Source of the DNA: Sulfurimonas sp.
Lineage (GTDB): Bacteria > Campylobacterota > Campylobacteria > Campylobacterales > Sulfurimonadaceae
Length of the DNA: 36,274 nucleotides
Reading direction: 5' to 3'
Assembly (NCBI GenBank): GCA_027013295.1
Contig: JALUXP010000112.1
Location: forward strand, 1-36,274
Shown one piece after another: positions 14,410 through 17,992 of this stretch. The number at the start of each line of letters is the position of its first letter. Positions within the stretch are counted from its first letter, which is position 1. The position numbers were made by a program, and so were the translations under genes. The notes under the pieces were generated by a model. The model had not been told where the DNA came from. It was given only the letters and a program-made list of their open reading frames with translations, and did not search any database.

Positions 14410-14438
14410 TTGACAAAAAATACTAAATAAAGTATAAT
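14410..14438 (+). promoter_or_regulatory. Consensus sigma-70 promoter for the ComEA-ZorA-like operon
   Basis: TTGACA at 14410-14415 and TATAAT at 14433-14438 are separated by exactly 17 bases, a textbook match. It predicts transcription from about 14445, which leaves the TTG at 14448 too close to be used and supports the ATG at 14493 as start. Few promoters in this window have any recognisable -35 box, so this one stands out. Confidence 0.75.
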
Positions 14439-14492: not shown

Positions 14493-15089
14493 ATGAAAAT
14501 GATTTTAAAATATTTTGTATTAATTTTACTGAGCGTGACCCATCTTTTTGCTATTGTAGATATAAACAATGCAAGTTCTAGTGAACTTTTAGAACTTAAT
14601 GGCATTGGAAAAGCTAAGGCTCAAAAAATCATCACATATCGAGAGAGTCATGAATGTTTCAAAAGCCTAGACGAACTCTCTCGGGTTGATGGTATTAGCA
14701 AGTCAATAGTATCAAATAACCGAAATGTTTTAAGTATTGGTGTATGTAAAAAAAATATCAAAAAAGATGATTTTACTCCAGCATCTATCACTGACATTTT
14801 ATTTGATCCTATAAACCTAGTTTTTGTTGTGATCATATTTATACTTGCAATCATCGATCAAGTTGCTAAAAAAGATTTGAAAAGTCAGATTGTTAGCATC
14901 GGTGTGCTTGGTACATTTGTTGGTATATTTATGGGTTTGCAAAGTTTTAATCCACAAGACATTATGAACAGTGTAAACGATATATTGCTAGGACTGAAAA
15001 CTGCCTTTTTTACTTCCATAGTCGGCATGAGCGTAGCAACTATGCTGAGTATATTTGAGATACTAAAGGGTGATTCTGAAGACAAATAA
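14493..15089 (+). CDS. ComEA-type HhH DNA-binding domain fused to a MotA/ExbB/ZorA-like channel protein
   Basis: 198 residues from the ATG at 14493. Residues 1-20 are a signal peptide ending HLFA. Residues 23-82 are a ComEA/Cj0011c-type domain: VDINNASSSELLELNGIGK, then YRESHECFKSLDEL and VDGISKSIV, i.e. two helix-hairpin-helix motifs. Residues 107-121, 134-152 and 168-188 are hydrophobic. GTFVGIFMGLQSF and GLKTAFFTSIVGMSVA match the second and third helices of MotA/TolQ/ExbB and especially ZorA proteins. The predicted topology puts the DNA-binding domain in the periplasm and a short loop inside. Between the two parts there is no in-frame ATG, GTG or TTG until inside the first helix, so the channel part can only be made as a fusion. 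The long cytoplasmic tail of Zorya ZorA is absent. It overlaps the ZorB-like gene by 20 bases. Confidence 0.75.
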   Translation: MKMILKYFVLILLSVTHLFAIVDINNASSSELLELNGIGKAKAQKIITYRESHECFKSLDELSRVDGISKSIVSNNRNVLSIGVCKKNIKKDDFTPASITDILFDPINLVFVVIIFILAIIDQVAKKDLKSQIVSIGVLGTFVGIFMGLQSFNPQDIMNSVNDILLGLKTAFFTSIVGMSVATMLSIFEILKGDSEDK

Positions 15090-15732
15090 TGTATGGATGA
15101 GCATCTCTGATATGATGTCAGGGCTTATGCTGGTTTTTTTATTTATCGCTATAGGGTTTATGATAGAGGTTGAGTCTCAAAAAGATGCGATGAAAAGTGT
15201 CGCTGAGTCATACAGAGACTCCAAGGCAAATTTAAATGAAAATCTGTATGAAGAGTTTGAACAGGATTTAAATAAATGGGATGCCGAGATAACTAAAGAT
15301 AATACAATAGTATTTAATTCCCCTGATGTTTTGTTCGCTGTTAACAAAAGCGATATTAAGGATGGTTTTAAAACCATATTGGAAGATTTTTTTCCACGCT
15401 ACCTTAGCATCATAACTTCTGCACAATATATAGATGAGATAAAAGAAGTGAGAGTAGAGGGGCATACTTCAAGCGAGTGGGGTAAGACAACATCAAAAGA
15501 AGATATTTACCTAAACAATATGAAGCTCTCTCAAAGTAGATCTTTTAAAGTTCTCTCTTTTTGTTATGCTTTAAATGATGCTACGGTTATACAAAACAGA
15601 CCTTGGTTAGAAAGCTATTTTCGTGCTAGTGGCATGGCATTTGCAAAACTAAAAGAAAAATCAAACTCAAGAAGGGTAGAATTTAGTATTGTGATGAAGA
15701 GTGAAGATATGGTTTATAAAATCTTAAAATAA
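15070..15732 (+). CDS. MotB/ZorB-like protein with a C-terminal OmpA-like domain
   Basis: 220 residues from GTG at 15070 (an ATG at 15097 is possible). One membrane helix spans about residues 15-32, preceded by WMSISDMMSGLMLVF. Asp14 stands where MotB and ZorB carry the proton-binding Asp. A charged linker follows, and from about residue 78 an OmpA/MotB peptidoglycan-binding domain: LFAVNKSDIKDGF, VRVEGHTSSEWG, NNMKLSQSRSFKVLSF and NSRRVEFSIV. This is the standard partner of MotA/ZorA-like channels and would anchor the complex to the cell wall. It is the second gene of the operon; the wzz-like gene downstream has its own likely promoter. No ZorC, ZorD or ZorE gene is nearby. Confidence 0.8.
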   Translation: MILKTNNVWMSISDMMSGLMLVFLFIAIGFMIEVESQKDAMKSVAESYRDSKANLNENLYEEFEQDLNKWDAEITKDNTIVFNSPDVLFAVNKSDIKDGFKTILEDFFPRYLSIITSAQYIDEIKEVRVEGHTSSEWGKTTSKEDIYLNNMKLSQSRSFKVLSFCYALNDATVIQNRPWLESYFRASGMAFAKLKEKSNSRRVEFSIVMKSEDMVYKILK

Positions 15733-15774: not shown

Positions 15775-16809
15775 ATGCAAGAAAAACAAATAGATATACA
15801 ACGATATGAAGATGATGAGATAGATTTAAAAGAATTGGCGAAAACTCTTTGGACAAATAGGATGAAGATAATTGTTATTACCTCCGTGATTACTGCGTTG
15901 GCAGTTGTTTACGCATTAACAGTTCCAAAAGTTTATGAAGCTAAAGCAATAGTTAAGATTGGTGAGTATAAGCTTAATAATATTGTTATTGTGCATAATA
16001 ATAATAATGGTGACAATGGTAGTAGTGTTCGCAATAATGGTAATGGTAATAAGAAAGTAGCAATAGCTAATGCTTCTGAACTTACAAAAGAATTAGAAGT
16101 TCTCTATATTGAAGTATTGAAAAATAAAAAAGATAGACCAGCTGTGATTGAAAGTATAGCTTTAGTAAAAAAACAAAAAAATCTTTTTGAAATTGTTGCA
16201 AATGGGAACTCAAATAAAACAGCCACTGCAGAGTTAATGAAAGTTGTAGAGTATGTACAAAAAAAACACCAAAAACTTTTAGATGATGTTCGAGAATTAA
16301 GAGAAGCACAGATAAAAGATGTAAAGAGTAGACTTTCGCTTATAGAAGAGAAAACATTACCAGCATTAAAAAGTAGGATCAGTAGATATCAAGATGATGT
16401 GACAATATATGAGCAAAACTTTAAAGATGTTCAAGAAAATCTCAAAAAAATCAAGAAGATAGATCCGACTATGGCAGCCCTACAAATAAATGAGCAAAGT
16501 TATTTAGCAAAGATGCTGATGAAATTAAGAGATTCACTTGAGGGTTATAGAGAGAAAAAAGAAAATATTATATTTATAAAACTGCCAGAACTTCAAAAAA
16601 ATCTAAATATTTTATACTCTTCAATGAAACCATATAACTATAAAAATACTGCAATTATTGGAAATATTATGACCAATGACTATCCCATAAAACCAAAGAA
16701 AAAACTCATCGTAATTGTTGCTTTTATAACCGGTTTTATACTTTCAATATTTTTAGTTTTCTTTTTAGAGTTTTTAAAAGGTTTTAAGAAAGAGGATTTT
16801 GAGGAGTAG
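15775..16809 (+). CDS. Wzz-type chain-length determinant / polysaccharide co-polymerase
   Basis: 344 residues. The layout is that of Wzz proteins: a cytoplasmic N-terminus with DEIDLKELAKTLW, helix one at about 32-52, a long periplasmic part rich in coiled coil (about 165-280), and a proline-rich PIKPKKK just before helix two at about 312-336. Wzz oligomers set the modal length of O-antigen or related polymers. There is no C-terminal tyrosine kinase domain. Residues about 70-92 are an Asn/Gly-rich insert encoded by AAT/GGT-rich repeats (15990-16050). The gene is separated from the main glycan operon by five genes on both strands. Confidence 0.82.
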   Translation: MQEKQIDIQRYEDDEIDLKELAKTLWTNRMKIIVITSVITALAVVYALTVPKVYEAKAIVKIGEYKLNNIVIVHNNNNGDNGSSVRNNGNGNKKVAIANASELTKELEVLYIEVLKNKKDRPAVIESIALVKKQKNLFEIVANGNSNKTATAELMKVVEYVQKKHQKLLDDVRELREAQIKDVKSRLSLIEEKTLPALKSRISRYQDDVTIYEQNFKDVQENLKKIKKIDPTMAALQINEQSYLAKMLMKLRDSLEGYREKKENIIFIKLPELQKNLNILYSSMKPYNYKNTAIIGNIMTNDYPIKPKKKLIVIVAFITGFILSIFLVFFLEFLKGFKKEDFEE

Positions 16810-16826
16810 TATGCTAATGCATACTA
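16807..16826. terminator. Perfect hairpin across both stop codons of a convergent pair
   Basis: TAGTATGC, loop TAAT, GCATACTA: an 8-bp perfect stem. Its left arm begins with the TAG stop of the Wzz-like gene, and the complement of its loop region contains the stop of the minus-strand gene. Only 4 bases separate the two coding regions. No U-run follows on either side, so it may block read-through weakly or protect 3' ends. Confidence 0.4.
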
Positions 16827-17992
16827 TGTCCCACAAATTTAGACATATTGTCTAATATCTCTGCCCCTTTACGAAAACTAAGTCCACACGCTTCATAAGC
16901 GAAAAAGACTCCCGCTTGATATTTATCTCCTTGTGCATCTTGGGGGAACTCTACATACTCTTGATAGATTTTTTTGTAGTTATCATAGACTCCATCTGTT
17001 TGAGTGAGTATATCTCCGTTTTGTGAGATTATCTTCGTGTTAGCACCCTCTCGACCAAAGACAGTTTTTTCTACCTGCTTGATGCCCTTTAGAGGTTCAT
17101 CAGAGCATCTAAGGATATATGGTGAGTCTGGGAACATATCACTGAGTATTTTCAACATCCCTTTGGACTGGAAGAGGAGGGTGTAAGCTGGGTTTAGGAT
17201 GATAGCTTTTTGGTTGTGTATGATAGTTGTAAGTGTAGTAGCGAGTTCACCTTCATCAGTACCTATATCTTCCCAAGGATAGAGTTTGAACCAATATTCA
17301 TATTGGTTGCCTTGTGCATCAAAGATGCCCTCATCTGTAAACTCTACATTGCCTAAGTATTCAAAACTTGTGTTAAATCCTGCATCCGTTGCTATCTGTT
17401 GGAGGAGTTTTGTGGTGACCTCCTCTTCCTCGTTTCCATCAATAGAGGAAAACAGAATTTTCCATCCATCATAATTTTCTTCAAAATTTTCTACATCTCC
17501 AAAAAGGGTGATGAGCCTTTTGAAGTTGTTTTTTATGGCTTCATAAACATCGTTAAACTGTTTTGCCTCATCCATATTGTTTTCTTTGAGAAGTGCCCAT
17601 TGGAGGAGAGCAGTCTCAAAAAGTGAGGTTGGTGTATCTGCATTAAACTCTATAAGTTTGATAGGATCTCCATCTATTCCACCAGCTAGATCAAAGCGAC
17701 CATAAATATGCCAGTGGACATCATTTTCCCAAGACTTTTTTATCATCTCTATGAGGTTAAATGGGATGCCAAGTTCAAAGAAAAGATCATTCTCTATCAC
17801 ATATTCGGCTGCTTGGACATACATATCGTATATCTCGTTTGTTGCAGTGTAGTAGGCTTCAGCTTCCTCTTGTGTGATTTGTACAAGGGCATCATTGACA
17901 TATTTTGACCCATCAGTGTCTGTGTGCCAAGTAAAGCCTATCTCTTCTAAGGTAGAGTCTTTTAGTGGGATAATATTTTGTAATTGAATCAT
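16814..17992 (-). CDS. Glutathionylspermidine synthase-like ATP-grasp protein
   Basis: 392 residues. GRFDLAGGIDGDPIKLIEFN near residue 100 and VFGREGANTKI with FFAYEACGLSFRKGAEILDN at the C-terminus are conserved in the C-terminal synthetase domain of GspS (PF03738). That domain joins a carboxylate to an amine with ATP. E. coli Gsp is a fusion with an N-terminal amidase; here the amidase part is missing, as in the common stand-alone YgiC/YjfC-type proteins. Those often sit beside small secreted or UPF0323-like proteins, as here, and their substrate is not established. The palindromic repeat at 18007-18064 separates it from the lipoprotein gene; AAAGGTAAT is the ribosome-binding site. Confidence 0.75.
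   Translation of the reverse strand: MIQLQNIIPLKDSTLEEIGFTWHTDTDGSKYVNDALVQITQEEAEAYYTATNEIYDMYVQAAEYVIENDLFFELGIPFNLIEMIKKSWENDVHWHIYGRFDLAGGIDGDPIKLIEFNADTPTSLFETALLQWALLKENNMDEAKQFNDVYEAIKNNFKRLITLFGDVENFEENYDGWKILFSSIDGNEEEEVTTKLLQQIATDAGFNTSFEYLGNVEFTDEGIFDAQGNQYEYWFKLYPWEDIGTDEGELATTLTTIIHNQKAIILNPAYTLLFQSKGMLKILSDMFPDSPYILRCSDEPLKGIKQVEKTVFGREGANTKIISQNGDILTQTDGVYDNYKKIYQEYVEFPQDAQGDKYQAGVFFAYEACGLSFRKGAEILDNMSKFVGHSMH

Follow-up and report, generated by a model that had tools for sequence, protein, structure and literature searches.

One gene in the window, the whole 36-kb contig (36,274 nucleotides) from a 2.06-Mb genome of the genus Sulfurimonas that we analyzed, joins a secreted ComEA-type (HhH)2 domain to the three-helix core of a ZorA-like motor subunit and is overlapped by a gene for a ZorB-like partner. 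We propose, with a probability of about 0.5, that the two proteins form a motor that is anchored in peptidoglycan, driven by ions and active on DNA in the periplasm, with DNA uptake as its probable role. What draws transforming DNA through the outer membrane has yet to be settled; current views have ComEA acting as a passive ratchet or through DNA condensation (PMC3879209, PMC13168374). A ComEA joined to an ion-driven motor offers a natural experiment in which active pulling can be tested; the pair may be a powered winch for DNA entering the cells of these marine and hydrothermal sulfur bacteria. We found no earlier description of a ComEA-motor fusion in the literature searched, which was largely open-access.

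The locus possesses the following features (coordinates of the window):

14410 to 14438, + strand: putative sigma-70-type consensus promoter TTGACA-17-TATAAT, 12/12 consensus match, 5' of the fusion gene
14493 to 15089, + strand: fusion gene, secreted ComEA-type (HhH)2 domain plus type II ZorA-like three-helix core, 198 aa (profiles, orthologues, model)
14493 to 14552, + strand: signal peptide, residues 1-20 (hydrophobic model helix 2-19; orthologue leaders hydrophobic, conserved and mostly ending LFA)
14556 to 14747, + strand: ComEA-type (HhH)2 domain, residues 22-85 (profiles, structure match, alignment)
14748 to 14804, + strand: variable linker, residues 86-104 (median pN 0.48, pS 0.71)
14805 to 15068, + strand: ZorA/ExbB/MotA core, residues 105-192 (8vvi_C, Z 11.6, 1.5 Å over 91 residues)
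15070 to 15732, + strand: ZorB-like (MotB-type) partner, 220 aa (profiles, alignment, model)
15775 to 16809, + strand: Wzz-type chain-length protein, flanking the comEA slot on its 3' side (in loci L016 and L024 a member of this family comes after comEA)
16814 to 17992, - strand: glutathionylspermidine synthase-type ATP-grasp protein (GspS), next gene flanking the comEA slot (shared with L016 and L024)

The initial annotation of this DNA had described a single frame with a signal peptide, a ComEA-type (HhH)2 domain and MotA/ExbB/ZorA-like helices, and Pfam, NCBIfam and a structure model all agree with it. The frame is uninterrupted from 14493 to 15089 on the + strand and encodes 198 aa when counted from the ATG at 14493. 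Pfam HHH_3 matched residues 22-78 with 57.4 bits (cut-off 27) and Pfam MotA_ExbB residues 136-188 with 23.1 bits (cut-off 22.9), and the NCBIfam ComEA repeat TIGR00426 scored above its curated cut-off (58.3 against 53.1 bits). Two cysteines, C55 and C85, are conserved in the HhH part. The core consists of TM1 (106-125), TM2 (130-150) and TM3 (157-192) and stops at the point where the ZorA tail begins. Both halves of the protein are evidently under purifying selection: among 22 intact orthologues, with synonymous sites near saturation, the median pN/pS values are 0.21/0.76 for the HhH domain and 0.16/0.72 for the core, compared to 0.48/0.71 for the linker.

The AlphaFold2 monomer model (mean pLDDT 85.6, pTM 0.49; the relative placement of the domains is not trusted) consists of a leader helix, the HhH domain and three long helices. 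Because both domains are small, Foldseek on its own returned nothing for it at E <= 0.001, and VIA-align resolved both. The HhH part superposes on ComEA (8dss) with Z 13.1 and an rmsd of 0.9 Å over 66 residues, and also matches PsbU and a T2SS pseudopilin at lower Z; the helices superpose on type II ZorA of Sulfuricurvum kujiense (8vvi) with Z 11.6 and an rmsd of 1.5 Å over 91 of 99 residues. The MotA/ExbB/ZorA-like label given earlier to this core can thus be refined to specifically type II ZorA-like. The signal peptide together with the three helices places the HhH domain, by prediction, in the periplasm, and the overall topology (cleaved signal, N terminus outside, three helices, short cytoplasmic end) would be that of ExbB and ZorA.

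The partner gene overlaps the fusion gene by 20 bases. Its product matches PADLOC ZorB2 over its length (E 5.9e-80), carries an OmpA-like peptidoglycan-binding fold from about residue 72 onward, and superposes on chain B of 8vvi with Z 22.9 and an rmsd of 3.7 Å over 211 residues. Asp14, located in the sole TM helix, is invariant in 20 aligned relatives, and the motifs EGHTS, NxxLSQxR and RRVE are invariant or nearly so. The overlapping ZorB/MotB-like gene with a membrane Asp and an OmpA-like domain that had been read from the sequence is therefore confirmed. In one genome (G018; L066 4158-7660), the fusion and its zorB-like partner lie about 3.5 kb apart, with a recombinase-like fragment in between.

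To establish how widely the fusion occurs, we searched several genome samples. A first sample of 60 relatives contained seven further full-length fusions, all in genomes of the same genus and 58-67% identical. Twenty of 135 Sulfurimonas species genomes carry the fusion, matched over 184 or more of the 195 profile positions, and broken copies are present in two others; copies broken by frameshifts or stops were seen in G010, G147 and G153 and in loci L103 and L110. Among 399 genomes of the order we found two carriers outside the family, G424 and a contig-edge copy in G284; since these are metagenome bins, misbinning is possible. A sample of 397 genomes of the phylum yielded no further full-length fusion at E 1e-25. 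As full-length proteins with the same two-domain order recur across genomes, rather than the two halves being always encoded by separate genes, we rejected a sequencing or frame error. Carriage by a plasmid or phage was rejected as well, since no record in the plasmid and phage collections covered 80% of the fusion protein and none of the viral contigs matched it.

Twelve of the 22 intact fusions lack an ATG, GTG or TTG at the position where the signal peptide has to start and have ATT or ATC there instead (including L081, L084, L085, L087, L089, L091, L093, L094 and L096), while a canonical start is present in 28 of 28 standalone comEA genes (p 5e-6 versus the fusions). The ATT or ATC often lies 6-7 bases 3' of an AAGGA-like site, and AUU or AUC appears to be the sole start codon available to these 12 orthologues. 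In the window copy an ATG stands just ahead of the homologous ATT (14493-14504), and translation may begin at the ATG at 14493 or 14499 or at the ATT at 14502. Gene calling limited to ATG, GTG and TTG would cut away the leader and much of the ComEA domain, as it did in this analysis, and such truncation may be why the fusion has been overlooked so far. We also observed that an exact sigma-70 consensus (12/12, 17-base spacer) precedes a member of a gene family with weak start codons.

Most of the nearest relatives without a fusion are ZorA proteins that possess a tail, their open frames spanning 378-1132 aa, and in Sulfurovum-type genomes a tailed ZorA is followed by ZorB and ZorE. In the ZorB tree all 25 fusion partners form one clade (99/95), which lies inside a supported group (95/89) with Sulfurovum Zorya II systems possessing ZorE; the HhH tree likewise contains one fusion clade (98/99; 65 columns only). 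These two trees indicate that a Zorya II ZorAB motor shed its tail and the ZorE nickase and acquired a ComEA domain, and the simplest reading would be that the fusion arose once and then spread both vertically and horizontally.

The window protein stops six residues past TM3, and every fusion terminates near this column, so that no ZorA tail is present. ZorE was not found in 12 fusion genomes (the window's own and 11 others); the positive control, G211, has ZorE. Ten window proteins, mostly neighbours, gave no match with PADLOC, and the NCBIfam equivalog models were missed by both proteins (ZorA2, 46.7 of 700 bits; ZorB2, 177.9 of 400 bits), although the ZorA2 criterion is strict, since tailed relatives with ZorE also miss it. 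The missing ZorE and the lack of PADLOC matches led us to reject a complete Zorya locus. Given that Zorya I and II cannot work without the ZorA tail and that type II also requires its effector ZorE (PMC11890865), we regard the tail-less pair, whose 12 tested genomes lack ZorE, as Zorya-derived but not a Zorya system; the earlier statement that no known Zorya type is present, for want of a tail and of adjacent ZorC/D/E, is borne out.

Other ZorA/ZorB-like pairs were seen along the way. Tailed ZorA-like and ZorB-like pairs are widespread in Helicobacter (L114-L142), where they possibly serve as housekeeping proteins or as an unrecognised system, and occur in Thiovulum and its kin (L108, L109, L111); none of those read has an adjacent ZorE. 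Two Sulfurimonas genomes (L072 8304-11208; L073 8065-10969) possess another tail-reduced ZorA-like protein (210 aa) paired with a ZorB-like one, with conserved small proteins upstream and two lipoprotein-like genes downstream.

Descent from a type II Zorya with ZorE also speaks for the main rival explanation, according to which phage DNA on its way through the periplasm is captured or detected by the ComEA domains; the motor would then hold this DNA up or divert it, or open a lethal ion leak, without the Zorya tail and nickase. The patchy distribution, the broken copies and the spread into other families point the same way, as do toxin-antitoxin-like and Uma2 genes adjoining several copies (Uma2 matches PADLOC candidate PDC-S03) and a Cas9-like gene near the G028 copy. 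However, the tail and the effector on which the Zorya types depend are both gone, the PADLOC search found nothing among the ten window proteins examined, and comEA loci without the fusion occupy the same neighbourhoods; hence, we consider a defence role, sensing and action taken together, unlikely.

The genomic position of the pair connects it to comEA. The order fusion-zorB-Wzz-GspS in the window and WbpM-fusion-zorB-Wzz-GspS in L084 correspond to WbpM-comEA-Wzz-GspS in L016 and L024, FlgK-permease-comEA (L171) to FlgK-permease-galU-fusion (L097, L099), and comEA-MqnE-GT2 (L022) to fusion-zorB-MqnE-GT2 (L085), several neighbour gene names in these comparisons being our reading of the sequences. 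An orthologous neighbour shared with fusion loci was present at 16 of 25 standalone comEA loci and at 0 of 17 control loci (Fisher p 1.4e-5), a count over not fully independent loci from which we left out one weak comEA match (30% identity) and the matches due to the OmpA gene at the centre of the control loci. To judge from these gene orders, the pair occupies the slot that standalone comEA holds in relatives without the fusion. A separate comEA lies at most 2.4 kb away in 6 of 27 fusion loci. A secreted ATP-dependent-ligase-like gene, which we read as a Lig E-type ligase, adjoins comEA in L017 (574-1389) and the fusion in G009 (L065 8536-9357) and in L086 (5200-5767), where it is broken.

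The genome to which the window belongs encodes ComEC and DprA. A second ComEA did not turn up in it; as this genome is 99.35% complete, such an absence is likely but not certain. About 16 of the 20 fusion genomes also possess a standalone ComEA (hand count), and the fusion is consequently not usually the only ComEA of its genome. With so many standalone copies kept, and genomes lacking both genes also common, we rejected a simple replacement of ComEA as a general rule.

Further genes were noted at individual fusion loci. An Uma2-family putative nuclease gene or its remnant lies directly upstream on the same strand in L087, L089, L090, L096, L101 and L104, and the 12 fusion genomes tested have 0-2 Uma2-family copies each. 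Near the fusion locus of G028, Cas2-, Cas1- and Cas9-like genes were recognized by sequence reading (L063 13987-18153).

In the first hairpin, K42 of the fusion aligns with K164 of Bacillus subtilis ComEA and K166 of Geobacillus ComEA, and it is invariant in the set of eight fusions aligned. The K164A substitution lowers transformation by more than 2 logs, and K166A abolishes DNA binding (PMC9747964). In the second hairpin, D or E precedes the Gly in all 26 fusions, compared to K in nearly all standalone ComEA proteins, an exchange that may weaken DNA binding.

The fusion loci are spread over several neighbourhoods, often with polysaccharide genes (galU, WbpM/PglF-like, PglB, Wzz, glycosyltransferase). 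These adjoining genes, the altered second hairpin and the lower-scoring matches to PsbU and the pseudopilin would fit an envelope machine, in which the HhH domain no longer binds DNA but forms a protein-binding cap like PsbU of photosystem II, and the motor acts on the wall or on surface polysaccharide. We hold this to be improbable: the first hairpin and its essential Lys are intact, ComEA is the closest structural match, and standalone comEA has the same polysaccharide neighbours, which therefore do not single out the fusion and are weakened as a specific functional link. That the gene is a decaying Zorya II remnant, joined to comEA by accident and now without function, would suit the several broken copies but is very improbable in view of the low pN/pS across both domains in the 22 intact orthologues, the conserved Asp14 and peptidoglycan-binding motifs of the partner, and the putative consensus promoter ahead of the window copy.

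For a motor acting on DNA, we envisage that a comEA gene captured, on one occasion, the ZorAB motor of a type II Zorya system. The fusion protein would assemble as a ring of five subunits, driven by ions, probably protons, and enclosing a dimer of ZorB fixed in the peptidoglycan; the five ComEA domains would lie on the periplasmic side of this ring. As ions pass, the ring would rotate or pulse relative to the stationary ZorB, and this motion would move or condense the dsDNA gripped by the ComEA domains. Most likely, the pair would in this way contribute active force when DNA is taken up into the periplasm, from where ComEC would be supplied. In a more specific and tentative form, the five-ComEA ring would be a rotary import motor that draws DNA through the periplasm using the membrane potential in place of ATP. 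Alternatively, the core might hold ComEA at the membrane as a passive tether, independently of any ion flow, but the conserved Asp14 counts against a tether.

Our analysis shows the fusion, its conservation, its descent, the loss of the tail and ZorE, an intact Asp and basic DNA-contact residue, and the comEA position. From the DNA-binding, ion-driven complex of the initial annotation, the fusion, signal peptide, domains and partner stand, while we continue to infer the 5:2 arrangement, ion flow, rotation, DNA binding and function. Because the pair lies in a comEA locus, we favour DNA uptake over defence and damage sensing. Against an uptake role, the gene is patchy (20 of 135 species) and broken in several genomes, which would not be expected of a core component of uptake; the standalone ComEA kept by most fusion genomes and the altered second hairpin count against it as well. 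In Campylobacter jejuni, uptake does not require ComE (PMC10046745). Moreover, the loci of comEA double as variable loci for surface polysaccharide, so that a hot spot might by itself account for the position.

Compared to the ZorAB of type II Zorya (S. kujiense, PDB 8VVI), the pair has in common the three-helix ZorA core and a ZorB with a membrane Asp and an OmpA-like peptidoglycan-binding fold; it lacks the cytoplasmic ZorA tail and the ZorE nickase and possesses an added periplasmic ComEA domain. Such reuse of a phage-defence motor whose signalling tail has been discarded separates the abilities of the ZorAB core from those of tail and effector. The ion-driven motors ExbBD, TolQR and MotAB, relatives in their manner of working, share the three-helix ExbB topology and an Asp-bearing partner; we found none of them with a DNA-binding domain on the ring subunit in the literature searched. 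With the DNA receptor ComEA/Cj0011c, the fusion shares the signal peptide, the (HhH)2 fold, the essential first-hairpin Lys and, in Sulfurimonas, the genomic slot of comEA; its second hairpin is altered, and it is joined to a membrane motor subunit, whereas ComEA is free in the periplasm.
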